Source of the DNA: Olavius algarvensis Gamma 3 endosymbiont
GTDB taxonomy: Bacteria; Pseudomonadota; Gammaproteobacteria; GCA-001735895
Assembly: GCA_001735895.1 (NCBI GenBank)
Contig: DS021199.1
Location: 1,294,796-1,334,447 of the forward strand
Direction: 5' to 3'
Length of the DNA stretch: 39,652 nt
Shown: piece by piece, positions 7,678 through 27,268 of the stretch
Layout: every line of letters starts with the position of its first letter
Numbering within the stretch: position 1 is the first letter of the stretch
Notes under the pieces: model-generated
The model's input: the letters and a program-made list of their open reading frames with translations, nothing else
What the model was told of the DNA's origin: nothing
The model's database searches: none
Program-made: the position numbers and the translations under genes

Positions 7678-7691
7678 TTGATAAAGGTCAA
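7678..7691 (+). promoter_or_regulatory. FNR/DNR-type box upstream of nosZ
   Basis: TTGATAAAGGTCAA matches the FNR/DNR consensus TTGAT-N4-ATCAA at 9 of 10 specified bases. Exactly 22 bases later lies a -10-like TAGAAT (7714-7719). That places the box at -41.5 from a start near 7726, the classical activating (class II) geometry. The nos operon is therefore predicted to be switched on under low oxygen or nitric oxide. Confidence 0.85.
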
Positions 7692-7719: not shown

Positions 7720-7772
7720 CTTCTCATTTGACGGTTTGAATTTCTAAAAATCCACTTATGGGAGATAGTTTC

Positions 7773-10079
7773 ATGGCTTTATCCAGAACCCGAGTATCAA
7801 CAGCGCTCCTGGCACTGTCGCTCGGTCTCGCCGCTACTGGCCCGATCGCGCAGGACTCGCTGCAAGATGTAATGAAAAACAGGGGATTGACCGAGAAAGA
7901 CGTCTTATCGGCGTCCAAAACCTACACGCCAACCGGCGGTCGCGACGAATTCCTGGCCTTCAGTTCGGGCGGTCAGAGCGGGCAGGTCATCGTTTACGGC
8001 ATACCGTCGATGCGGATCCTGAAATACATCGGCGTATTCACGCCGGAGCCCTGGCAGGGCTACGGTTTCGACGACGAATCCAAGGAAGTGCTGGCGCAGG
8101 GACGTATCCATGGCAAGGATATTACCTACGGCGATACCCACCACCCGGCGATTACCGAAACCAACGGCGATTACGACGGACGTTATCTGTTCATTAACGA
8201 CAAGGCCAACCCGCGACTCGCGGTGATCGATCTGCATGATTTCGAAACCAAGCAGATCGTGGTCAATCCATTCTTCAAGAGTGCGCACGGCGGCGCCTTC
8301 GTTACGCCGAACTCCGAGTATGTCATGGACCCGGCGCAGTATGCGGCGCCGCTCAGCAACGGCTTCGTGCCGCTGGAAGAGTTTAACGATCGCTATCGCG
8401 GCGGTCTGACCTACTGGAAGTTCGACAACGAGAAGGGCCGTCTCGACCCGAGTCAGTCTTTCACCTTCGAATTGCCGCCTTATAGCCAGGATCTCTCGGA
8501 TGCCGGTAAAGGTCCGTCATACGGCTGGGGCTTCACCAACTCGTTCTGCTCCGAACGTTATGTCGGCGGTAACGAGCGTGGCCGCCCGCCGTTCGAAGCT
8601 GGTTGTTCCTCCAAGGACACCGACTTTTTGCACGTTACCAACTGGAAAAAGGCCGCTGAGCTGGTCGCGGCAGGCAAGGTGAAAAAGGAAAACGGCGCCT
8701 ACCTGATCCCGATGAAGCAGGCGGTTGCCGAGGGTATTTTGTACCTCATTCCCGAGCCGAAAAGCCCACACGGCGTCGACGTAACCCCGGATGGCAAGTT
8801 CGTGACTATTTCCGGCAAGCTCGACAGCCATACCTGGGTTTATTCCTGGGCCAAGATCAAGGCCGCGATCGACAACAAGAAGTTCGAAGGCAAGGATCCT
8901 TACGGCGTGCCGATCATCGCCATCAACGACGTTTTGCATAAGTCGGTTAACGTCGGCCTGGGGCCGCTGCATACGCAATACGATTCCAAGCCTTGCGTCG
9001 CCTACACCTCGATTTACGTCGATTCGATGATCACCAAGTGGGACTACTGCGAAGGCAAGGTGCTGCATCAGCTGCCGGTACACTACAATGTCGGCCACTT
9101 GATGACGATGGAAGGCGACAGCGTCAGCCCGGACGGCAAATACCTGGTGTCGCTCAACAAGCTGGCGATCGACCGGTTCAACCCGGTCGGCCCGCTGCAC
9201 CCGCAAAACCATCAGCTGATCGACATCAGCGGCGAAAAGATGGAATTGTTGTACGATATGCCGATTCCGTTGGGCGAGCCGCATTACGCGGTGGCGATCG
9301 CCTCCGACAAGCTCAAGCCGGGCGTACGCTACAAGTCGGGCTGGAACAGCCGCAAGGACGAACGCTCGCCGTGGAAAACCCGCGCCGGTCGTGAAAAGAC
9401 CGAGCGCAGCTGTGACGCCGACGGCAAGTGTACCGTGCATGTTTACGGTACAACGATCCGCTCGCATATCACGCCCGAAATCATCGAAGTGGAAGAGGGC
9501 GATACGGTTTCGATCCACCTGACCAACCTCGAGCGTGCCGAAGACGAAGTACACGGATTCGCGATGTACGGCCACAATGTACAGCTGTCGATCGAGCCGG
9601 GTAAAACCGCTTCTTCGACTTTCGTCGCCGACAGAGCCGGTGTTTATCCCTACTACTGCACCGAATTCTGTTCCGCACTGCATCTGGAAATGCAGGGTTA
9701 CCTGTTGGTTAAACCGAAAGGTTATAAGGCCAAGGCGGTTAGTTTGAAAGAGGGCACCACCTACAGCCAGGCCGACTACCGCAAGCAGGTCGAAACCAAC
9801 ATCGCAACCCAGGGCGTTATCGATGGGGTTGTCACCTTCATCACCAGCCACAACTTCAAGGATTTCCCGACCGTTGTGGCGCTGGTTGAAGATGCCACCG
9901 ATCAGCTCGGATTTGCCGAGGAGGCCAAGGCCAAGTCCGAAGCCGCCGCCGCCAAGAAGGATTGGAGCAACGCGATGCTGTGGGCCAATCAGTGGTGGCA
10001 GTATCAAGTCAAGACCGCAGATCTAGGTCTGCGCGCAAAAACCCACCTTGAGGAGAATGGTGCCAAGAAGGTCAAGTAA
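7773..10079 (+). CDS. nosZ: Nitrous-oxide reductase, clade II (Sec-type)
   Basis: This periplasmic copper enzyme reduces N2O to N2. The ATG at 7773 (768 residues) has GGGAGATAG just upstream and opens a Sec signal peptide (MALSRTRVSTALLALSLGLA) with no twin-arginine motif, the mark of clade II NosZ. The seven-bladed propeller carries the CuZ-site histidines in DTHHP (123-124), SAHGGAF, GPLHTQYD, NVGHLMTMEGDSVSPDGKY and EPHYA. The C-terminal cupredoxin has the CuA site CTEFCSALHLEM (Cys629, Cys633, His637, Met640). After the CuA domain there is an extra tail of about 115 residues, Lys/Ala-rich and helical with a Trp-rich patch (WANQWWQYQ). It has no CxxCH, unlike the cytochrome tail of some epsilonproteobacterial NosZ. 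It is the first gene of the nos operon, under an FNR-type promoter. Confidence 0.97.
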   Translation: MALSRTRVSTALLALSLGLAATGPIAQDSLQDVMKNRGLTEKDVLSASKTYTPTGGRDEFLAFSSGGQSGQVIVYGIPSMRILKYIGVFTPEPWQGYGFDDESKEVLAQGRIHGKDITYGDTHHPAITETNGDYDGRYLFINDKANPRLAVIDLHDFETKQIVVNPFFKSAHGGAFVTPNSEYVMDPAQYAAPLSNGFVPLEEFNDRYRGGLTYWKFDNEKGRLDPSQSFTFELPPYSQDLSDAGKGPSYGWGFTNSFCSERYVGGNERGRPPFEAGCSSKDTDFLHVTNWKKAAELVAAGKVKKENGAYLIPMKQAVAEGILYLIPEPKSPHGVDVTPDGKFVTISGKLDSHTWVYSWAKIKAAIDNKKFEGKDPYGVPIIAINDVLHKSVNVGLGPLHTQYDSKPCVAYTSIYVDSMITKWDYCEGKVLHQLPVHYNVGHLMTMEGDSVSPDGKYLVSLNKLAIDRFNPVGPLHPQNHQLIDISGEKMELLYDMPIPLGEPHYAVAIASDKLKPGVRYKSGWNSRKDERSPWKTRAGREKTERSCDADGKCTVHVYGTTIRSHITPEIIEVEEGDTVSIHLTNLERAEDEVHGFAMYGHNVQLSIEPGKTASSTFVADRAGVYPYYCTEFCSALHLEMQGYLLVKPKGYKAKAVSLKEGTTYSQADYRKQVETNIATQGVIDGVVTFITSHNFKDFPTVVALVEDATDQLGFAEEAKAKSEAAAAKKDWSNAMLWANQWWQYQVKTADLGLRAKTHLEENGAKKVK

Positions 10080-12511: not shown

Positions 12512-12530
12512 GCACAGGATGACGCAGCTG

Positions 12531-13688
12531 ATGGCTAGAGACAGACAGATCTGGATTTACCGCGGATTGACCGCCGTCGGAATCCTGTTGCTGGCGTTTA
12601 TCTATTTCACGCCCATCTGGTGGGTATCCTTGACCGCGCCGAATTATCCCGCGGAAGCCTTTCCCGACGGCGTCCGCATCCATTTTCACGCCAACGGTGT
12701 TTTCAACGGCTGTCAAAAGGTCGACAAAACCGAAATCACCGAAGTCGAGGCGCTCGATTGCGTGCACGAAATGGATACCATAAATCATTATGTGGGCATG
12801 TATCCGATTGCCGCCGGCGGCGTCATCGAGCGCGCCTTCTCACCCTATCTGTTTAGCCTGCTCGGGATTATGCTGGCTAGTTTCATGGTGGTCGACCCGA
12901 AGCGGCGCACGCTTGTCATGGGAGCGGGTTTCGCCGCGCTCGCCGTCTGGATGTATTTCGGCTGGTATGCCGCCGACGGACTCAAGTATCAGAATGCCGG
13001 CTATATCGAAGCCTTGGTGACGGCGCTGGACCAGGATACTTCCAGCGATCAGGTGGTCAGCTCCGGTAACGCCATCGTCGACCGGCTGCGGGCTTCGCTC
13101 GAAGCCAGCGGTGTAAAGCTGGATGATGGCAAGGCCGAGCAGAATCAAAGCGATAAGGCGCGCAACCTGGAACATCTAAGCGTTACCTTCGAAAAAGACC
13201 AGGAGCGCAAACCGGCCGCGCAACGGCTGCAGTGGGACGGCAGCGGTGCGCAGATGATGTCCTGGCATTACGAAAAAAGCCTGGCGCGCTATTTTAATGT
13301 CGCGGCGGAGATCGCGCTGCGGGTCGCTGGCATGTCGACCGCCGGCCATATCGTATTCTGGGGATTGTTGGCAGCTATGATTTTTCTGCTGCTGGCGACC
13401 CGGCGCAACGACAGCCCGCTTTACTGGCTGCTGGTACTGCCCTCGATATTACTGCCGGTGTTTTTCATTATCGATTATTCCGCCTGGCTTTGGTGGTATG
13501 GCCACACGCTCAACGATATGGGCGCATTCACCGTTAAACCATTCATGCCTACCGTGTTCGGAGACGGCAAGGTGGCTCAGTTCACGACCCATTCCTACCC
13601 GCATATCGGCTTCGGTTTGATGGCCTTACACTCGGTCGCCGTAATCTTCGCCGCGAATCGGCGTTACCGCCTGCTGCAGGAAGAATAG
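12531..13688 (+). CDS. nosB: NosB-like membrane protein of the clade II nos cluster
   Basis: This 385-residue membrane protein has hydrophobic segments near the N-terminus, around residues 105-155 and at the C-terminus (three or four helices). Between the first helices is a periplasmic loop with the paired cysteines in NGCQK and LDCVHEMDTINHYVGMYPI. The HEMDTINHYVGM stretch is what I recall as characteristic of NosB, a protein of unknown biochemical role found only with clade II NosZ. A hydrophilic loop at about 165-240 precedes the last helices, which contain YSAWLWWYGHTLND. The ATG at 12531 was chosen because AGGA lies 11 bases upstream; an ATG at 12519 overlaps that AGGA. Its position between cytochromes and nosD matches other clade II clusters. 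Confidence 0.85.
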   Translation: MARDRQIWIYRGLTAVGILLLAFIYFTPIWWVSLTAPNYPAEAFPDGVRIHFHANGVFNGCQKVDKTEITEVEALDCVHEMDTINHYVGMYPIAAGGVIERAFSPYLFSLLGIMLASFMVVDPKRRTLVMGAGFAALAVWMYFGWYAADGLKYQNAGYIEALVTALDQDTSSDQVVSSGNAIVDRLRASLEASGVKLDDGKAEQNQSDKARNLEHLSVTFEKDQERKPAAQRLQWDGSGAQMMSWHYEKSLARYFNVAAEIALRVAGMSTAGHIVFWGLLAAMIFLLLATRRNDSPLYWLLVLPSILLPVFFIIDYSAWLWWYGHTLNDMGAFTVKPFMPTVFGDGKVAQFTTHSYPHIGFGLMALHSVAVIFAANRRYRLLQEE

Positions 13689-15797: not shown

Positions 15798-16777
15798 AGG
15801 CGCTCAAAAAATCACTCGCAGTACTGCTCGGCGCCGATCCGCAAAAGCCGATCCCCGACGATTTCACCATCGAGGCGCACGCTATGCATGCGGTGCAGCG
15901 CGCCGATAAGGGCCGCATTCAACTATTGCTGGCCGAGCTCGAGGAAAAGAAAACAAAGGGAAAACCGCCGGAGAAGTGGCGCCGCCGGCGCTGGAGTGTT
16001 TTGATCCTCGTCAATCTGTTGTTCGTGCTGTCCTATTCGCTCGATATTCAGGTGCTGGAAGGCGCGCTGACCGCGTCGCGTTTTGTCGGCTTCCATATGG
16101 CGGACCTGAATTCTGCACTGCAGGTCATGCTGGCCTATAAGCAAGTGCTGATCAATTTGCTGATCGGCACCGTCACGGTTCTTATATTCTGGTGGGTACT
16201 CGGCGGGCGCACTTTTTGTTCCTGGGTCTGTCCCTATCATCTGCTTGCCGAATGGGCCGAAATGATCCACGAATACCTGGAAAAGAAAAAAATCGTGCGC
16301 GATCACCCCTTCGATCGCAGGGTAAGAACCTTGTTGTGGCTGGTATTTGCATTATTGGCCTTCGTTACCGGGTACACCGTGTTCGAAACCATTTCGCCCA
16401 CCGGAATATTGAGTCGCGCGCTCATCTACGGGCCCGGGATTGCATTGGTCTGGGTCTTGTTCTTGCTGCTGGTCGAGATTTTTTACTCGCGCCGGGCCTG
16501 GTGTCGCTACGCCTGCCCGATCGGGCTTACCTATGGCGTGGTCGGCGCCTTTTCTCCGCTCAAGGTGACTTATTATCTCGATGCTTGTTTTCACGAGGGC
16601 GAATGCCGTAAGGTGTGCGAAGTTCCGCATGTACTCGACATGGTAATCAAGGGCCGCGCGACCGATGTCAACATGAACATCGGGGCCGACTGCACGCATT
16701 GCGGCCGCTGCGTCGACGCCTGCCCGACCGGTTCACTCAATTTGAAGTTCAAAGGGCTTGGAGATATTTTTCAATGA
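15794..16777 (+). CDS. nosH: NosH (NapH-like) membrane iron-sulfur protein
   Basis: This 327-residue protein has about four transmembrane helices (about 66-85, 118-136, 180-200, 212-230). It has two cytoplasm-side CxxxCP motifs (CSWVCP 142-147, CRYACP 237-242) as in NapH/NosR-type polyferredoxins. It also has a C-terminal ferredoxin part with Cys265/271/275 and Cys300/303/306/310 (CTHCGRCVDACPTGS). It should pass quinol-derived electrons with NosG. The ATG at 15794 overlaps the nosG stop by 4 bases. A longer in-frame version exists upstream but would sit inside nosG. The stop overlaps the nosF start in the same ATGA fashion. Confidence 0.95.
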   Translation: MKALKKSLAVLLGADPQKPIPDDFTIEAHAMHAVQRADKGRIQLLLAELEEKKTKGKPPEKWRRRRWSVLILVNLLFVLSYSLDIQVLEGALTASRFVGFHMADLNSALQVMLAYKQVLINLLIGTVTVLIFWWVLGGRTFCSWVCPYHLLAEWAEMIHEYLEKKKIVRDHPFDRRVRTLLWLVFALLAFVTGYTVFETISPTGILSRALIYGPGIALVWVLFLLLVEIFYSRRAWCRYACPIGLTYGVVGAFSPLKVTYYLDACFHEGECRKVCEVPHVLDMVIKGRATDVNMNIGADCTHCGRCVDACPTGSLNLKFKGLGDIFQ

Positions 16778-18960: not shown

Positions 18961-19133
18961 CCTGCCTGATTGACCACGCGCCCTCTACGGGCGGTGATCT
19001 ACGAGATGACCGATACTGCTGTTGAGTAATCCCTGCACAAGCGGACACTTGTAAATCGAATTCGCGCTTCCACAACCGACACTGATGGAAGCCGACCGAT
19101 CCAAATAATAGTTACGGGCATAGCATAAGAACA

Positions 19134-19149
19134 GGCCCCGTTCGGGGCC
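19134..19149. terminator. Bidirectional terminator hairpin
   Basis: GGCCCCG-TT-CGGGGCC is a perfect 7-bp stem between the end of the nos operon (plus) and the stop of the Lys/Ala repeat gene (minus). On the minus strand it is followed by TGTTCTTATG, a moderately T-rich run, so it fits best as the repeat gene's terminator, and it may also stop read-through from nosY. Confidence 0.7.
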
Positions 19150-19190
19150 CATCCTCAGTTATCAATACAACTTCCTTTTTGCGGACGCGA

Positions 19191-20429
19191 TTAAGCTGCC
19201 AGGGCCGCGGGTCTTTTCCTTTTTGATTTTACCTTCTTGGCTTTCGGGCTCTTCGCTTTTTTGGCCTTGGTGAGTTTCGCTTTCTTGGTCTGTGCTTTTT
19301 TAGGTTTGGCTTTTTTAGCCTTGGCCTTGGCGAGTTTGGCTTTCTTGGCCTGTGCTTTTTTGAGCCTGGCTTTTTTAGCCTTGGCCTTGGCGAGTTTCGC
19401 TTTCTTGGCCTGTGCTTTTTTGAGCCTGGCTTTTTTAGCCTTGGCCTTGGCGAGTTTGGCTTGCTTGGCCTGTGCTTTTTTGAGCCTGGCTTTTTTAGCC
19501 TTGGCCTTGGCGAGTTTCGCTTTCTTGGCCTGTGCTTTTTTGAGCTTGGCTTTTTTAGCCTTGGCCTTGGCGAGTTTGGCTTGCTTGGCCTGAGCTTTTT
19601 TGAGCCTGGCTTTTTTAGCCTTGGCCTTGGCGAGTTTGGCTTGCTTGGCCTGAGCTTTTTTGAGCTTGGCTTTTTTAGCCTTGGCCTTGGCGAGTTTGGC
19701 TTGCTTGGCCTGTGCTTTTTTGAGCCTGGCTTTTTTAGCCTTGGCCTTGGCGAGTTTGGCTTTCTTGGCCTGTGCTTTTTTGATCCTGGCTTTTTTAGCC
19801 TTGGCCTTGGCGAGTTTGGCTTTCTTGGCCTGTGCTTTTTTGATCCTGGCTTTTTTAGCCTTGGCCTTGGCGAGTTTCGCTTTCTTGGCCTGTGCTTTTT
19901 TGAGCCTGGCTTTTTTAGCCTTGGCCTTGGCGAGTTTCGCTTTCTTGGTCTGTGCTTTTTTGAGCCTGGCTTTTTTAGCCTTGGCCTTGGCGAGTTTGGC
20001 TTGCTTGGCCTGTGCTTTTTTGAGCTTGGCTTTTTTAGCCTTGGCCTTGGCGAGTTTGGCTTGCTTGGCCTGAGCTTTTTTGAGCCTGGCTTTTTTAGCC
20101 TTGGCCTTGGCGAGTTTGGCTTGCTTGGCCTGTGCTTTTTTGAGCCTGGCTTTTTTAGCCTTGGCCTTGGCGAGTTTGGCTTGCTTGGCCTGTGCTTTTT
20201 TGAGCTTAGCCTTTTTGGCTTTGGCTTTGGCTTTGGCTTTGGCGAGTTTCGCCTGCTTGGCTTTTTTCTTCTCCTTCTTCAACTTGGCTTTCTTTGCCTT
20301 GGCCTTCTTCTGTAGCTTGGCTTGCTTTTCGTCCTCGCTGATTGTTTCGCTGGTGCTTTGCATACTTGCTTGTTTTTCCCGATTCTTTATCGAGTCGATG
20401 GGCGTGATATCGATGGTAGCTGCTTTCAT
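19191..20429 (-). CDS. Lys/Ala-rich histone-like 20-residue-repeat protein
   Basis: This 412-residue, extremely basic protein has a short ordinary head (about 1-36, MKAATIDITPIDSIKNREKQ, then Ser/Glu-rich). A lysine/alanine region follows, built from about 16 copies of a 20-residue unit (consensus KKAQAKQAKLAKAKAKKARL), ending in a Lys/Pro/Ser tail (SPKAKKVKSKRKRPAALAA). The units vary only at a few sites (Arg/Lys, Leu/Ile, Gln/Lys, Ala/Thr). The composition recalls histone-H1-like bacterial proteins such as AlgP, but the unit differs from the AlgP KPAA repeat. No signal peptide is seen. Binding and compaction of nucleic acid is the simplest inference; binding to polyanions such as polyphosphate is an alternative. 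A strong AGGAGG lies 8 bases before the ATG and an FNR-type box lies about 70-80 bases upstream. Confidence 0.85.
   Translation of the reverse strand: MKAATIDITPIDSIKNREKQASMQSTSETISEDEKQAKLQKKAKAKKAKLKKEKKKAKQAKLAKAKAKAKAKKAKLKKAQAKQAKLAKAKAKKARLKKAQAKQAKLAKAKAKKARLKKAQAKQAKLAKAKAKKAKLKKAQAKQAKLAKAKAKKARLKKAQTKKAKLAKAKAKKARLKKAQAKKAKLAKAKAKKARIKKAQAKKAKLAKAKAKKARIKKAQAKKAKLAKAKAKKARLKKAQAKQAKLAKAKAKKAKLKKAQAKQAKLAKAKAKKARLKKAQAKQAKLAKAKAKKAKLKKAQAKKAKLAKAKAKKARLKKAQAKQAKLAKAKAKKARLKKAQAKKAKLAKAKAKKARLKKAQAKKAKLAKAKAKKAKPKKAQTKKAKLTKAKKAKSPKAKKVKSKRKRPAALAA
19261..20220 (-). repeat. 60-bp tandem coding repeat, about 16 units
   Basis: Sixteen consecutive 60-base units (19261, 19321 ... 20161), with a partial unit after 20220, share the start ttggccttggcgag and differ at about four sites (e.g. 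tttcgc/tttggc, tttctt/ttgctt, tgtgct/tgagct, gagcct/gagctt/gatcct). The mosaic of shared variants along the array suggests unequal crossing-over or gene conversion, so unit number probably varies between strains. It encodes the 20-residue repeat of the Lys/Ala protein in frame with no broken unit. Confidence 0.97.
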
Positions 20430-20496
20430 TCTTGGCCTCCTCAGGCAGACGTACGAACTAAGCTATCGATACTTTATTATTTCGAGGTATGATATT

Positions 20497-20510
20497 TTGA
20501 TCTATGTCAA
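20497..20510 (-). promoter_or_regulatory. FNR/DNR-type box upstream of the Lys/Ala repeat gene
   Basis: Read on the minus strand it is TTGACATAGATCAA, 9 of 10 specified bases of TTGAT-N4-ATCAA. At class II spacing the -10 position holds AAGTAT (weak), with TAAAGT and AATAAT nearby. The box is convincing; the exact promoter is not. Confidence 0.65.
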
Positions 20511-20642: not shown

Positions 20643-21392
20643 TTAAAACGGCAGCGGCAGTTTGCTGGTGCGGCCGCCGTCGATGACGATCACCTGGCCG
20701 GTGACAAAAGTGGCATCGTCGCCGGCAAGATAGACGGCAAGCTTGCCGACATCTTCGGGTTCGCCGATGCGTCCGCTCGGGTGCATTCGGTAGAGACCTT
20801 GCCGGGCCGCGGCCGGATCCTGTTGCAGGTTGATATAATCTTCGCTGAGTTCCGAACGAATCCAGCCCGGCGCAATCGCGTTGAGGCGAATACCCTCGCT
20901 GCCGAGATCGACTGCCATGGCTTTGGTAAGCGCGTGCACGCCACCCTTGCTGGCGCAGTAGGCAGTGTGCTCGGGATTCGCCGCCAAACCCTCGATTGAA
21001 CCAATATTGATTATGCTGCCACCACCGTTGCAACGCAGCAACGTCAGTAAAGCTTTGCACAAAAACATCGGAGCGGTCAGATTGACCGCGAGCATTCGGT
21101 TCCAGTCATCGAGTTGCATATCGTCGATCGATTGTTGGAACATGAATCCGGCGTTGTTAACCAGGATATCGATGCTGCCGAATTCCTGCTGCGCGGCCGC
21201 GGCGATGGCGGGGAAACTATCCGGCTGCGCCAGATCCGCCTCGATCCAGCTTGCCGCGGACAGTTCGGTTGGTAGCGGTCTGCGTTGCGCCACCAGGATA
21301 TGTGCGCCGGCAGCGAGCATCGCCTGGCTGATCCCGAGACCGATGCCCTGGCCGCCACCGGTGATGACGGCCACCTTGCCCGCCAGGCTCAT
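20643..21392 (-). CDS. Short-chain dehydrogenase/reductase
   Basis: This 249-residue classical SDR oxidises or reduces an alcohol/ketone with NAD(P). It has the nucleotide-binding TGGGQGIG (11-18), NNAG (79-82), catalytic Ser132 and Tyr145/Lys149 (YCASK), and the C-terminal FVTGQVIVIDGG typical of FabG-like members. It is the last gene of a minus-strand run with another SDR (3 bases between), an FAD oxidoreductase and hydrolases, which suggests a catabolic pathway. The substrate cannot be read from sequence. Confidence 0.92.
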   Translation of the reverse strand: MSLAGKVAVITGGGQGIGLGISQAMLAAGAHILVAQRRPLPTELSAASWIEADLAQPDSFPAIAAAAQQEFGSIDILVNNAGFMFQQSIDDMQLDDWNRMLAVNLTAPMFLCKALLTLLRCNGGGSIINIGSIEGLAANPEHTAYCASKGGVHALTKAMAVDLGSEGIRLNAIAPGWIRSELSEDYINLQQDPAAARQGLYRMHPSGRIGEPEDVGKLAVYLAGDDATFVTGQVIVIDGGRTSKLPLPF

Positions 21393-21395
21393 CGC

Positions 21396-22160
21396 CTAGT
21401 GAACCGGTTTAGCGCCGCTCACTTCGACCGTTTCGCCGCAGATGTAACGCGCGTCCTGCGAGGCCAGAAAGGCGATGACGTCGGCAATTTCCCCGGGTTC
21501 TGCAATACGGCCCAGCGGCACGGTTTTACCCAGTTCCTCTATCGCGTTTTCCGGATCGATGCCGCGCGTGGTATAACCGCTGCGTAGCATCGGGGTATTG
21601 ACTTCGTTGGGGCAAACCGCATTGACGCGGATACCGTCGGGCGCATGGTCGCGGCCGAGACTCTTGGTCAGCGCCGCCAGCGCGGCCTTACTGGTGCAGT
21701 AGGCGACGTGATCGGGTCCGGGATATATACCCCAGGTCGACGAGGTGTTGACGATCGCGCCGCCGCCGGCCTCCTGCATATAGGGAATCGCTGCGCGGCA
21801 CAGGAAAAACACCGCGTTCAGGTTGACGTCGAGTGCGCTAAACCACATGTCGTCGGTGGTTTCCAGAATATTGCCGCGCGGGATAATGCCGGCATTGTTG
21901 ACCAGGATATCGATGCCGCCGAAGGTGAGTACCGCCTCGGCGATCAGAGCCTCGCAATAGGTCTTCCGGCGCAGGTCGCCTGCCATGTAATGTGTGTCCA
22001 GCCCCTTGCGTTTCATGGCTTCGCTGAGGTCGTTGCAGTCTTCTTCGCTGCGATCGGAAAACAAAACCTTGGCGCCTTCGCTGGCAAACAGGTCGACCAG
22101 CGCATGGCCGATGCCGCCGACTCCTCCCGTGATTACTACGCTCTTATCGTCAAATCTCAT
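21396..22160 (-). CDS. Short-chain dehydrogenase/reductase
   Basis: This 254-residue classical SDR has TGGVGGIG (11-18), NNAG (88-91), active-site Ser in NTSST, Tyr154/Lys158 (YCTSK) and ICGETVEVSGAK near the end. The start is placed at ATG 22160 because MRFDDKSVVITG is a normal SDR beginning. The frame stays open upstream into the neighbouring gene but has no family similarity there. It lies 3 bases after the stop/start junction with the DadA-like gene and shares its probable operon. It is distinct in sequence from the next SDR, so the pair likely does different steps. Confidence 0.92.
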   Translation of the reverse strand: MRFDDKSVVITGGVGGIGHALVDLFASEGAKVLFSDRSEEDCNDLSEAMKRKGLDTHYMAGDLRRKTYCEALIAEAVLTFGGIDILVNNAGIIPRGNILETTDDMWFSALDVNLNAVFFLCRAAIPYMQEAGGGAIVNTSSTWGIYPGPDHVAYCTSKAALAALTKSLGRDHAPDGIRVNAVCPNEVNTPMLRSGYTTRGIDPENAIEELGKTVPLGRIAEPGEIADVIAFLASQDARYICGETVEVSGAKPVH

Positions 22161-22162
22161 CG

Positions 22163-23407
22163 TTATAAAAATCTTCTCGGACTGAACGGGGTTATATTGT
22201 GGCTCGGATCTTCGCCGTTTGCCAGTTCGGCGATGAGTTTGCCGGTAATTCCGGATAGCGTGAGTCCGAGGTGCTGGTGTCCGAATGCATAGATTATGTA
22301 TTCCGACACGGTACTGAAGCCGATTACCGGCAGCGCGTCGGGGCAGGTCGGGCGAAAGCCGAGCCATTCCTGATCGGGTTTGTCGGGCAGTTCCAGCATC
22401 TCCTGCGCTTTGCGGGTCAGATAGTCGATGATACCTGGGTTGATTTCGCCGTGGTAACCCGCGATTTCGACGGTGCCGGCGAAGCGCAGACCGAGGTTCA
22501 TCGGGGTCGCGTAAAAGCCCGCCTGACGCCAGCTAACCGGGCGGCTGAGCAAATGCTGCTTGCCGCCGAACTGCACGTGATAACCGCGCTCGGTGTCGAG
22601 TTTGAGCAGCTGCGTCGGAATCCCCTCGATGGATTTTGAAAAGGCGCCGGCGGCAACGACGACACGCTCGGCCTCGATATTGGCCCCGCTATCGAGCTGG
22701 ATCTCCACCGCGCCGGCTCCGTGCCTGACCTCGAGCGCGCGCTGGCGCAATAGCCGACCCTGGTTGCGCAGAAAACACTCGACGTAGCGCTGGCAAAGCG
22801 CCATCGGGTCGAGTACGTGGCTGATGCCGTCGGCTAGCAGACCGCGCGCGAACGGAATTTTCAGGTTGGGCTCGAGCGCCCGGATATCGCCTTGATCCAG
22901 TTCGACGAATTCGGAATAGTACCTGCGCCTTGTCTGAATATATTTTTTTGCGGCGTTGAATTCGCGCTCGTCGCGATAAACATCCAAGAATCCCTGTTGC
23001 GTCAGCAAGTCGCGCGCCTGCGCCATGTCGAGCAGCGGATCGAGTCCTTCATAGACCTTGGCCAGCAACTTGCCGAGTAGACGCGTAATCCGTTCGACCT
23101 TATGCTCGCGGCAATTGATTAAAAAATCCAGCATCCAGCCGGGATGCGATAATACGTAGCCGAGGTCCAGGCTCAGCGGGCTGTTATTGGAAAACAGCAG
23201 TGCCGGCAACCGGCGCAACAGATCCGGGCTGTTAACCGGAATGCAGCCGTATTCCGCGATGGTGCCGGCGTTGCCGGATGAGGTGCCGGAGCCCGGCTCC
23301 GCGGGGTCGATCAGGGTGACTCTAAAACCTTTTTTTTGTAACCACAGGGCGCAACTGCAGCCGACGATTCCGGCACCGATCACTGCGATGTGGATTTGCG
23401 AATTCAC
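22163..23407 (-). CDS. FAD-dependent D-amino-acid dehydrogenase-like oxidoreductase
   Basis: This 414-residue member of the DAO/DadA family oxidises amines or D-amino acids and passes electrons to the quinone pool. The N-terminal Rossmann motif is IAVIGAGIVGCSCAL with a family-typical GSGTSSGNAGTIAEYGC stretch. The C-terminal FAD segment WLGFRPTCPDALPVIG and HQHLGLTLSGITGKLIAEL match the family. The GT(S)SGNAG run and the length of about 415 match D-amino-acid dehydrogenases closely. It is upstream of two SDR genes and downstream (85 bases) of the DUF1611-like gene. Combined with the M20 hydrolase, it suggests use of N-acylated or D-amino acids. Confidence 0.88.
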   Translation of the reverse strand: MNSQIHIAVIGAGIVGCSCALWLQKKGFRVTLIDPAEPGSGTSSGNAGTIAEYGCIPVNSPDLLRRLPALLFSNNSPLSLDLGYVLSHPGWMLDFLINCREHKVERITRLLGKLLAKVYEGLDPLLDMAQARDLLTQQGFLDVYRDEREFNAAKKYIQTRRRYYSEFVELDQGDIRALEPNLKIPFARGLLADGISHVLDPMALCQRYVECFLRNQGRLLRQRALEVRHGAGAVEIQLDSGANIEAERVVVAAGAFSKSIEGIPTQLLKLDTERGYHVQFGGKQHLLSRPVSWRQAGFYATPMNLGLRFAGTVEIAGYHGEINPGIIDYLTRKAQEMLELPDKPDQEWLGFRPTCPDALPVIGFSTVSEYIIYAFGHQHLGLTLSGITGKLIAELANGEDPSHNITPFSPRRFL

Positions 23408-23492
23408 GCAGGCTCTTTCCAGCGACTAAGACGAGAGCGATAGTTTATGCAAACTCCGGGGGATTCGGTACCGCTTATTTGGCGGCCTCGAT

Positions 23493-24503
23493 TTACCGGC
23501 CGAGCGCTTTGCGTAGCATGGCGGCTAGCTGTGGGCGGCTCGATGGATCCATCAGGTTGAGCGCCGGCAGGCCGGCGAGCTTCTCCACCAGTGCGATCGC
23601 GGCATCGGTATTGGCTGCGCCACCGGCCACCAGGTCGGGGCTACGCTGGAAGGCCGTCTCGATGCCTACCACGGCGTAAGGATCTTGGGCGCACAACAGC
23701 TTGAATTTGACGTGGTCGCGGATCATTTCCGTGGCAATTGCGCCATTGTAAGGCTCGAGCGGGGATGCGCCGGCCTCGGCCACGACGACGTCGGGCTTGT
23801 CTCTGGCGATCAGCGACAACAGATAGGGCAGGGCTTCGCGGTAGTCCGCTTTGTCAACCGCCGATGACGGTAGTCCGGCATCGACAAAATCGTAGATCGC
23901 GCTGGCGCCGGCATCGAGGAAGCTGAGCATGTCGCGATAACGCGCCGCCCCCGTCATTTTGGTGCCGACCACCTTGAGTCCCATTTGCGCCAACAAGTGC
24001 ACGATGATGCGGCCGGACATGGTCTTGCCGGAAGACATCGAAGTGCCGACGATCAGGATGACCGGTATGTTGAAGTCGATCCTTTCGAGCGGCGGCAGGC
24101 AAGCGCGCATCGTCAGTTTGTTATCGTTGCGCGTGATGTGTCCCTGGTACTGCAGTCGCATGGGCGCAGATATGAACGGTGACAGCGATGTAGTTTTGCC
24201 GAATAGCCCGGCGGCGGTTAGCGCGTTAAGTTCACCCGTCGCATCGATCGAGCGCCAGTCGCCAACCGCCTCCAGCGTCGCCGCACGCCGGCCGAAGGCG
24301 CCGATTACGAGGTCGTCCTCCATGACTTCGATCATGCGCCCGCCGGGCAGTTCGATCGCCTTTGCGCGGCCGCGCGTGTCGAGCACCTTGGCGAGTACGT
24401 AATCGCCGGTATCCCAGTGATCGCGCGCCAATGCCGTAGTCGTGAAATTGTCGGGCGTCAGATCGGAGATGCGCGTGACCGATGCGAGAAAGGGACGGAT
24501 CAT
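23493..24503 (-). CDS. DUF1611-like P-loop protein
   Basis: This 336-residue protein has a central P-loop VGTSMSSGKT (about 152-161), a cofactor-like KVVGTKMTGAARYRDML segment, and DVVVAEAGASPLEP. This layout is that of the DUF1611 family (P-loop NTPase fold, C-terminal), some members of which sit beside dipeptide epimerases and D-glutamate genes (DgcN-type). An N-terminal beta-rich region (about 1-110) precedes the P-loop. The reaction cannot be assigned from sequence. It is 16 bases downstream of the M20 peptidase gene and so in one operon. Confidence 0.75.
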   Translation of the reverse strand: MIRPFLASVTRISDLTPDNFTTTALARDHWDTGDYVLAKVLDTRGRAKAIELPGGRMIEVMEDDLVIGAFGRRAATLEAVGDWRSIDATGELNALTAAGLFGKTTSLSPFISAPMRLQYQGHITRNDNKLTMRACLPPLERIDFNIPVILIVGTSMSSGKTMSGRIIVHLLAQMGLKVVGTKMTGAARYRDMLSFLDAGASAIYDFVDAGLPSSAVDKADYREALPYLLSLIARDKPDVVVAEAGASPLEPYNGAIATEMIRDHVKFKLLCAQDPYAVVGIETAFQRSPDLVAGGAANTDAAIALVEKLAGLPALNLMDPSSRPQLAAMLRKALGR

Positions 24504-24519
24504 GGAGAGCCTCCTGGTA

Positions 24520-25677
24520 TCAGTTTTTGAGCGCCGGCGCCATCAATAACAGGGTCAGCAGGGCGCAACGCTCCGGTAACAAATCGATTTGGATATGTTC
24601 GTGGTGAGCATGAGCGCCGTCGCCGACCGCACCCATGCCGTCGATCGTGGCGGTATAAAGGCTGGTGGTATTGCCGTCGGAGCCGCCGCCGGCGGTGCCC
24701 TGCTCGATATCCAGGCCGATCTCCGCCGCCAGTTCTTGCGCCAACCGCCATAGTTGTTGGTTGCCTGCGGTACGCTCCATCGGCGGGCGGCCGAAAGTGC
24801 CCTCGATGGTGAGTATGACCCCTGGCGTTTCGGTTTCGAGGCCGTGGATCGCGTTTTCCAGGCGCTCGGCGTCGGCATGGGTTTGCACCCTGACGTCGAT
24901 TACCGCGCGGCTCTGGGGCGCCACCATATTGGGCCGGATGCCACCGTCGATAAGACCGACGTTTACCGAGGTTCCCTGTTCGGGGTCATTCAAGTCGAAC
25001 AGTTTTTGAATCACGTGCGACAACTCGAGAATGGCGCTGGCCCCGGCGTCCGGGTCGAGGCCGGCATGGGCGGCCTTGCCCTGCACCGTGACCTCGAAGC
25101 GGCCGACGCCCTTGCGCGCAGTCTTGATTTTACCGCTGCTGCCGAGCGAAGGCTCGAGCACCATGCAGCGATCGACGCGTTGCGCCAGCGCATGCACGTA
25201 ACGTGACGATTCACGGCTGCCGATTTCTTCGTCTGAATTGATGAAACACAACGGTGCGACGCTGGGCCGAAGGCCCATGGACTCGATCGTTCTAAGCGCG
25301 AAAATCATTGCCACCAGCCCGGCTTTCATGTCGTAAACCCCGGGTCCATGCAAGCTGTTTTTTTCCCTTACCAGCGGCATTCCCTGCAGCGTGCCGATCG
25401 GCCACACCGTGTCGCAATGCCCTAGCATCAGCTGTGCCGGTTGACTCCGGCCGCAGTATTTTGCGCTGGCATAAACATGCCCGCCGGAAAGACGCCCGGG
25501 TATCAGGTTGACACGGTAATCGATTGCTTCGAATTCCGCCTTCAGGCGGTGCAGGATCTGGGCCTGTGATGCGGCGTCGGTGGATGGGGTTTCCATCATT
25601 ACCAGATCGCTGAGTAGTGCCGTCATCGAGTCTTGCTGGGCGCGCAGGTGGGCCAGCACTTGCCGCTTGTCTTCCAT
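24520..25677 (-). CDS. M20 family metallopeptidase (carboxypeptidase G2-like)
   Basis: This 385-residue zinc hydrolase has no signal peptide. The M20 metal and catalytic residues are visible: GHCDTVWP (His87, catalytic Asp89), GPGVYDMKAG (bridging Asp116), DEEIGS (catalytic Glu150 and metal Glu151), and a later His (HHEH near residue 360). The substrate side resembles glutamate carboxypeptidase / acetylornithine deacetylase-like enzymes that remove acyl groups or C-terminal residues. The start MEDKRQ is supported by the 5-base gap after the flavin reductase stop. Partner genes suggest degradation of an N-acylated amino acid. Confidence 0.9.
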   Translation of the reverse strand: MEDKRQVLAHLRAQQDSMTALLSDLVMMETPSTDAASQAQILHRLKAEFEAIDYRVNLIPGRLSGGHVYASAKYCGRSQPAQLMLGHCDTVWPIGTLQGMPLVREKNSLHGPGVYDMKAGLVAMIFALRTIESMGLRPSVAPLCFINSDEEIGSRESSRYVHALAQRVDRCMVLEPSLGSSGKIKTARKGVGRFEVTVQGKAAHAGLDPDAGASAILELSHVIQKLFDLNDPEQGTSVNVGLIDGGIRPNMVAPQSRAVIDVRVQTHADAERLENAIHGLETETPGVILTIEGTFGRPPMERTAGNQQLWRLAQELAAEIGLDIEQGTAGGGSDGNTTSLYTATIDGMGAVGDGAHAHHEHIQIDLLPERCALLTLLLMAPALKN

Positions 25678-25682
25678 GCAGC

Positions 25683-26285
25683 CTACCTTTTGAAGCCGGC
25701 CGGAAACGGCAGTTTGGTGGATTTCGAAATTTCGGCAAAACGGCCCGGGTACAGGTAAGCCAGTAGCGGCGCCTTGAAGACCAGGTCTTCGTCATCCCGA
25801 TCGTTGCGGCGGAGTTCATCCTCGGCGATCATGGCTTTGACGATGCGGCCGATAATCAGCGAGTTTTCTCCCAGGTCATCCACCATCTGCTCCAGCTCGC
25901 ACTCGAGAAACAGGTAGCCGTCCCGCACAAAAGAGGCATTGATCGATTCGGCGGCAAAAGTGGGTAGCGCCTCGGTAATCGGCTTGCTGCCGTCTTCACA
26001 GCGCGGGCTAGCGGCGAGGCTCGCCAGCACGGTTTGCGACGGGCGCATGTAGGTAACCGCGAATTGCCGGTCGCGCAAAATGTTTTGGTAGGTGTTGTGG
26101 CGCGGCGTGCAGACAAAGCCGAAGTGATTTTTCCAGCTCATCGGTATCGCCAGGTGCTTGGGCGCCAAATCGTCGCGGCCGTCTGCCTCGCGGGTTCCGA
26201 CGATGACGAGCGGGAAAACCGTGAAAAAACTCTCCCAGATGGATTCGCTGGTATCCAGCTCGATCAACTGCGCGGTATCGGCCAT
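25683..26285 (-). CDS. Flavin reductase-like (DIM6/NTAB) protein
   Basis: This 200-residue FMN-binding split-barrel protein belongs to the flavin-reductase-like family (FFTVFPLVIVGTRE, LAPKHLAIPMSWKNHFGFVCTP, NTYQNILRDRQFAVTYM). Such proteins supply reduced flavin or act as flavoproteins. It is the first gene of the minus-strand operon and directly faces the peroxiredoxin-like gene across a 174-base spacer with a perfect FNR-type palindrome. A predicted class II start would give a leader of about 20 bases. Confidence 0.85.
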   Translation of the reverse strand: MADTAQLIELDTSESIWESFFTVFPLVIVGTREADGRDDLAPKHLAIPMSWKNHFGFVCTPRHNTYQNILRDRQFAVTYMRPSQTVLASLAASPRCEDGSKPITEALPTFAAESINASFVRDGYLFLECELEQMVDDLGENSLIIGRIVKAMIAEDELRRNDRDDEDLVFKAPLLAYLYPGRFAEISKSTKLPFPAGFKR

Positions 26286-26342: not shown

Positions 26343-26356
26343 TTGATACGTATCAA
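26343..26356. promoter_or_regulatory. Perfect FNR-type palindrome between divergent genes
   Basis: TTGATACGTATCAA is a perfect 14-bp palindrome matching TTGAT-N4-ATCAA at all specified bases. On the plus side a -10-like TATTAG (26383) follows; on the minus side TTTAAT (26316-26311). Both put the box near -45 rather than -41.5. It could control both the flavin reductase operon and the peroxiredoxin-like gene. Confidence 0.75.
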
Positions 26357-26459: not shown

Positions 26460-26990
26460 GTGAACGTATTAAAACCGCGGGAAGCCGTTCCCGCCCTCGA
26501 AGTCGAGACCCTGGACGGCACCTGGTCGCTGGCCGATCAGAATCCCGAAAATTTTACCCTGGTCGTTTTTTACCGCGGCCTGCATTGTCCGATCTGTACC
26601 AAGTACATCGGTGAGCTGGACCGTCTCAAGAACGATTTTGACGAGATCGGGGTTTCCGTGTTGGCGCTGAGCACCGATACTCGCGAGCGCGCGGTCCAGG
26701 CGCAGCAGAATTGGGAATTGAAAAACCTGAATCCGGGTTATGGCGTCACCGTCGAGCAGTGCCGCGACTGGGGTCTGCATCGCTCGGCTAGCCGTGGTCT
26801 GACATCGATCGGTATCGAGGAGCCCGCCGAGTTCAACGAACCGGGCATCTTCATTGTGCGCCCCGACAACACGCTTTACTGGGCGCAGATTAGCACCATG
26901 CCGTTCGCGCGGCCGCATTTTCGTGAAATCATCGGCGGCCTTAAATTCGCGCTGGAAAAAGATTATCCGGCACGCGGCGAGCTCAGCTGA
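26460..26990 (+). CDS. Peroxiredoxin-like (AhpC/TSA) protein
   Basis: This 176-residue redoxin has a thioredoxin fold and a CxxC-type motif HCPICTKYI (Cys43, Cys46) in place of the classic peroxiredoxin TPxC. It belongs to the peroxiredoxin-like family of the AhpC/TSA superfamily. The GTG start at 26460 is chosen because AAGGAGTACTCC lies just upstream and the reading NVLKPREAVPALEVETLDG is the natural family beginning. Likely role is peroxide or thiol handling. The perfect FNR box upstream links it to low-oxygen growth. Confidence 0.85.
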   Translation: MNVLKPREAVPALEVETLDGTWSLADQNPENFTLVVFYRGLHCPICTKYIGELDRLKNDFDEIGVSVLALSTDTRERAVQAQQNWELKNLNPGYGVTVEQCRDWGLHRSASRGLTSIGIEEPAEFNEPGIFIVRPDNTLYWAQISTMPFARPHFREIIGGLKFALEKDYPARGELS

Positions 26991-27113
26991 AGCAACCCGG
27001 TATCGTCTCGGGGTCTGCCTTCCAAGCCCCGGGATTCGAGCGGCGTCGACTGCCGCTTCGGATCGAACAATCGGTGGATCTGAAATCGTAAAAACTTCGC
27101 TCTCGGTGAGATT

Positions 27114-27139
27114 CTCCGGGTGTTCCGCAAAGCCCGGAG
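27114..27139 (+). terminator. Hairpin downstream of peroxiredoxin-like gene
   Basis: CTCCGGG-(12 bases)-CCCGGAG is a perfect 7-bp stem, not followed by a T run. It is a possible transcript end or leader structure before the 28-residue peptide. Confidence 0.35.
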
Positions 27140-27268
27140 GGGTCATATTCCAGTGCGATGCCGTGGTTTTTCGTTTATACGGGCGACAAATCATGCTTTC
27201 CGCAACTCGGATGCGGGACAATAACCCAACGGCAATCCAAGGTTTTTGATTGGCCGGGGGAGAAGTCT

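Follow-up and report, generated by a model that had tools for sequence, protein, structure and literature searches.

The question raised by this locus is whether a bacterium can place a histone-like, lysine-rich protein under the control of a regulator that responds to the loss of oxygen. The window analysed here (the whole stretch of 39,652 nucleotides from the Olavius algarvensis Gamma 3 endosymbiont) carries, beside a nos cluster, a gene for a repetitive lysine/alanine protein with an FNR/DNR-type box upstream. The features of this gene are as follows, in window positions.

19191 to 20429, minus strand: Lys/Ala repeat protein gene, an open reading frame (ORF) of 412 amino acids whose N-terminus is kept in orthologues
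20304 to 20429, minus strand: N-terminal segment, residues 1–42, with 16 of 42 columns invariant in three sequences; the handle for orthologue recognition
19261 to 20231, minus strand: tandem array of a 60-nt unit in 16.2 copies, the 20-residue unit comprising four pentads (Tandem Repeats Finder)
20497 to 20510, minus strand: FNR/DNR-type box TTGACATAGATCAA, centred about 74 nt upstream of the ATG
20430 to 20442, minus strand: ribosome site GAGGAGG plus spacer, identical in the orthologue of genome G007
19128 to 19157, minus strand: GC-rich 13-bp hairpin, a possible transcription terminator (fold compared with shuffles)

The repeat protein and its orthologues

Both the ORF and the array agree with a preliminary description of this DNA, which had reported a 412-residue protein of about 16 near-identical 20-residue Lys/Ala units, and the strong ribosome site that it had named was found as GAGGAGG just ahead of the ATG. 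The array showed 95% matches and 0% indels, and fifteen in-register units varied at four residue positions (K/R, L/I/P, A/T and Q/K) as well as at silent sites; such near-identity indicates that the array was homogenised recently. Lysine (171 residues, 41%) and alanine (128 residues, 31%) dominate the protein, which has a net charge of +177 and a pI of 12, and seven of its eight acidic residues lie within residues 1–40. The plus strand across the gene is also open, with frames of up to 284 aa; coding on that strand was ruled out because the orthologues, the ribosome site and the box all fit the minus strand. The claim that the gene has its own terminator held in part: the stretch around the hairpin folds better than shuffles (z −3.2), but the U-run is short and lies partly inside the stem, and the hairpin is missing from the output of the terminator scan. 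A terminator at this position is plausible, not certain.

Orthologues were found in two other genomes of the same gammaproteobacterial genus, G007 (62% complete) and G016 (94% complete), the window's own genome being G000. They share the first ~40 residues with the window protein from the same methionine onwards (64% over the first aligned stretch in G007 and 52% in G016), and their repeat units differ. An N-terminal model matched 3 of the 31 genomes searched in the genus and 3 of the 41 in the family, the order search covering the identical 41 genomes; in a class sample, in which G007 and G016 were not seen, it matched the own genome alone (1 of 369). Searching genome_contigs with the N-terminus gave one match, CAMYON010000026.1, which is the G016 copy, while viral contigs, plasmids and PDB yielded no homologue, and the N-terminal 42 residues matched no Pfam family. 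Absences in the other draft genomes are soft, because both orthologue copies sit at contig ends: the G007 contig breaks off within the repeat, and that of G016 extends only three bases upstream beyond the ATG. The repeat hinders assembly, and the count of 3 of 31 could miss copies lost at contig ends. Over 40 codons of the N-terminus, dN/dS was about 0.9 between the window and G007, the two remaining pairs giving 0.4 and 0.3; the segment is quick to evolve, which we counted against an essential role. Searching with the full-length protein gave matches in 21 of 57 relatives, mostly through composition. When 15 of the 28 relatives' loci were screened for ORFs of >60 residues with >20% Lys, a filter that misses Lys/Ala tails on other proteins (for example in G003), only L005, L006 and L011 were returned, and the lysine-rich ORF of L011 has an N-terminus different from that of the window protein.

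Each of the three orthologues builds its repeat body from units of its own, yet composition is similar, with a whole-protein content of 34–48% Lys and 23–31% Ala; the net charges of the other two copies are +60 in 144 residues (incomplete) and +66 in 183. Common to all three bodies is a five-residue rhythm of small or hydrophobic residues. The hydrophobic autocorrelation at lag 5 was 0.72, 0.84 and 0.39, and none of 2000 shuffles reached the respective value; that of the window protein is inflated by its near-identical units, and a single unit alone gave a shuffle fraction of 0.0009. AlphaFold2, run on the single sequence, predicted one helix (residues 32–389, pLDDT 82.6, pTM 0.23) without strands. 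A long helix is expected in such a prediction for any Lys/Ala-rich sequence, and the body may be disordered in the cell.

The promoter and the nos neighbourhood

The FNR/DNR-type box of the preliminary description was corroborated in several ways. On the minus strand at 20510–20497, TTGACATAGATCAA matches the TTGAC-N4-ATCAA half-site form exactly and is one mismatch away from TTGAT-N4-ATCAA. G007 carries TTGACGCAGATCAA at an equal distance from the ATG, a spacing that suits an activator site, and the two boxes are identical at 12 of 14 positions, both differences falling in the spacer. Ungapped identity between the window and G007 is 60/81 from box to ATG and 29/81 over the next 81 nt upstream; that is, box, spacing and ribosome site are all kept, and similarity falls just above the box. 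This conservation rests on one genome pair, the G016 contig being without promoter DNA. When the DNA of the genus was searched with the region from box to start codon, G000 and G007 alone matched strongly; all other matches were short (E≥0.02). A simple scan found no sigma-70-like promoter or −10 element on the minus strand at the repeat gene, and one on the plus strand only.

Such boxes are also enriched. Across the 4.87-Mb genome, 56 sites fit TTGAY-N4-RTCAA, compared with 2 that fit the reversed pattern, and 6 of the 56 fall within the window (0.46 expected, Poisson P 8e-6). Five of these six stand 61–75 nt before a start codon (mechanical ORF starts), and the genes behind them are nosZ, the repeat gene, and genes for a flavin-reductase-like protein, a cytochrome c'-like protein (Pfam score marginally under the cut-off) and a metal-transporting ATPase; the sixth, at 16001, falls inside an ORF. 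A near-box stands ahead of a CBS-domain gene. The genome also encodes a CRP/FNR protein (L057) in which a CxxCx5C motif is followed by a further cysteine, a four-Cys FNR to whose cysteines we assign the FNR role, and L059 carries an E-S-x-S-R stretch, which we take to be like that of FNR/DNR. Judged from these sequence features, the repeat gene is likely, with good confidence, to be under an FNR/DNR-type factor. Since FNR and DNR cannot be told apart by this box, either oxygen or NO could be the signal.

Three observations concern the surroundings of the boxes. The six exact boxes of the 39.7-kb window, out of 56 in the genome, form an island at 7678–33042. In G007, the stretch that separates the repeat gene from a divergent ORF (start 2512) holds two boxes (L034, 2569–2582 and 2671–2684), so placed that each of these genes has one at a fitting distance. 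Upstream of the repeat gene in the window, a same-strand gene run (20643–26285, minus strand) has its own box at 26343 and comprises a flavin reductase, an M20 peptidase, an ORF without Pfam match, a DAO oxidoreductase and two SDRs; read-through from this run into the repeat gene is possible.

The adjoining nos cluster is as the preliminary description had it. NosZ (7758–10079) matched TIGR04246 at 4e-259, and NosD and NosL also matched their profiles. The cluster runs on the plus strand to ~18960, and the repeat gene, convergent and tail-to-tail with it, lies outside. A functional link to nos, which the earlier account had implied, was not supported: the genes are convergent, nosZ was found in one of the three bearers of the repeat gene (G000 only), and the neighbours at both orthologues are others. 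In G016 the nosZ model gave just a 35-bit match, confined to its last ~60 positions, and in G007, at 62% completeness, none. Across the 31 genomes of the genus, Sec-dependent NosZ was above the cut-off in three, with five more long sub-cut-off matches and one fragment, and the N-terminus of the repeat protein had no match in any other genome of the genus with a long nosZ match. By reading of translations, the G007 gene is accompanied by Na/Pi-cotransporter-like and amino-acid-dehydrogenase-like ORFs, and the G016 gene by selA/selB-like and amidinohydrolase-like ORFs, with a CBS-like ORF downstream. Three ORFs of the window had no Pfam match at E 0.001, namely 12519–13688 (389 aa), 23493–24503 (336 aa) and 26469–27221 (250 aa); the first sits within the nos cluster, presumably at the NosB position.

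Likeness to known polycations and candidate functions

Starting from the gene, its composition, the pentad rhythm, the N-terminus and the box with its spacing, all read directly from the DNA, we propose the following. On oxygen loss (or NO arrival), an FNR- or DNR-type regulator would bind the box and the gene would be transcribed. The product would be a cytoplasmic, strongly positive polycation of the H1/Hc2 type, rod-like or disordered, whose ~350-residue lysine/alanine body may neutralise and condense polyanions, most likely chromosomal DNA, so that the nucleoid would be compacted or quietened during anaerobic slow-down; the N-terminus (residues 1–40), with its seven acidic residues, may set oligomerisation or targeting. 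Our best reading, to which we give a probability of about 0.5, is a DNA-binding polycation of the H1/Hc2 kind, specific to this lineage and induced through FNR/DNR. On charge alone, the protein is very likely to bind polyanions. That DNA or the nucleoid would be the main target is about an even chance, polyphosphate and RNA, which would suit this charge too, being rivals. Of the earlier proposal of a histone-like DNA compactor switched on by oxygen loss, the FNR/DNR control is supported at the level of sequence and a histone-like polycation is the likeliest reading, given composition and pentads, while DNA binding is something that we infer.

The closest anatomy appears to be that of Hc2 (hctB; PF07382), with its relatives BpH1 of Bordetella and the Hc2-like proteins of Burkholderia. 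According to passages of PMC2848022, Hc2 has a short conserved start followed by lysine-rich pentamers arranged in longer elements that are rapidly duplicated and lost, condenses DNA, binds RNA and represses translation. The repeat protein shares with these proteins the short conserved N-terminus, the pentamers in longer elements, the even positive charge and the fast turnover of unit number and type. In contrast, it is almost without proline and has 412 residues, compared with the 165–237 that the same passages give for C. trachomatis Hc2. PF07382 did not match it at E≤10, and we therefore class it as working like Hc2 and not as an Hc2 member. HC2 was above the cut-off in 4 of the 31 genomes of the genus; of the two of these that were inspected, one has the Lys/Ala tail attached to an S2-like protein and the other to a different helical protein, and in G000 two HC2 matches lie away from the repeat gene, on an L30-like and an S2-like ORF (identity by reading).

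The earlier claim of a new kind of response was overstated, because both the repeat type (Hc2, BpH1, AlgP) and an anaerobically induced nucleoid protein are already known. The latter, Dan (TtdR/YgiP) of E. coli, belongs to the folded LysR-type regulators rather than to the lysine-repeat polycations. Like the role proposed for the repeat protein, Dan is described in passages of PMC3688515 and PMC4677351 as a nucleoid protein that is up under anaerobic conditions. No prior FNR-linked lysine-repeat protein was recognised in the open-licence literature, among the matches listed, so what is new, as far as found, is the FNR/DNR control of such a protein. We hold more tentatively, at somewhat below even odds, the wider picture of an H1/Hc2-like condenser wired directly into the FNR/DNR regulon, in which oxygen loss itself would lead to bulk chromatin compaction through a lysine-pentad polymer of rapid turnover, and of a new N-terminal family. 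If this were true, a respiratory switch would be coupled to a histone-like polycation, tying the energy state to chromosome compaction through one promoter. Moreover, the three orthologues keep charge and rhythm but not the unit, so that the family would test which features polyanion condensers must keep.

The alternative that survives best, although we consider it unlikely, is a polyphosphate-binding protein that would be induced on oxygen loss and would organise polyphosphate granules in the manner of AlgP. AlgP (AlgR3) and PhaF of Pseudomonas are like the repeat protein in their long lysine/alanine tail and H1-like composition. Passages of PMC9239181 describe both as binding DNA and associating with polyphosphate or PHA granules, AlgP being a lysine-rich DNA-binding repeat protein that localises to polyphosphate granules, with clues to a possible effect on anaerobic survival; they are silent on an FNR/DNR-type box such as that of the repeat gene. 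In addition, PP_kinase was above the cut-off in G000 and G016, and the G007 gene shares its small contig with the Na/Pi-cotransporter-like ORF. On the other hand, PP_kinase had no match in G007 (at 62% completeness), the KPAA repeats of the AlgP C-terminal domain are missing from the 412-residue sequence, and no polyphosphate gene is present among the Pfam-scanned genes of the window.

Slightly less probable still is that the polycation is directed at RNA or ribosomes, damping translation or storing ribosomes under anoxia. The Lys/Ala pentad tails on L30-like and S2-like proteins of the genus and the action of Hc2 on RNA and translation (passages of PMC2848022) would agree with this, but Pfam found no ribosome-binding or hibernation domain, and no translation gene occurs among the scanned genes of the window, the selA/selB-like ORFs being near the G016 copy. 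We regard as improbable a fast-evolving gene of low function, in which an array expanded within a small FNR-regulated ORF and the Lys/Ala body has been drifting. Presence in 3 of 31 genomes, the scant sign of purifying selection that one pair showed at the N-terminus and the recent homogenisation of the units are in its favour; against it, three diverged copies have all retained composition, charge and pentad rhythm, and the two comparable ones their promoter and ribosome site as well. Finally, a beta-helix of pentapeptide repeats whose surface would be all lysine is very improbable. In its favour, the window protein has A-x-[L/A]-x-x pentads and scores past the cut-off of Pfam Pentapeptide (PF00805; 82.6 bits vs 20.2). 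Against it, neither orthologue matched that family at E≤10, the NCBIfam pentapeptide scores are far under their cut-offs, lysines take the outward positions, and the model (a weak test) shows one long helix in place of the right-handed quadrilateral beta-helix typical of the family. The Pfam match probably stems from the five-residue rhythm. PHROGs matches were to families of unknown function.

Other Lys/Ala proteins occur in the genus. L30-like or S2-like ribosomal proteins with Lys/Ala pentad extensions (identity by reading) were seen at L071 (1549–2082), L072–L076, L077 and L079, and different H1-like Lys/Ala proteins or tails in other genomes of the genus at L080 (1487–2038), L078 (1097–1849) and L081 (1642–2328). 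None of the 11 stretches examined for such proteins contained an exact FNR box. One of the three proteins at L078, L080 and L081 has a helix-hairpin-helix-like N-terminus, again by reading.
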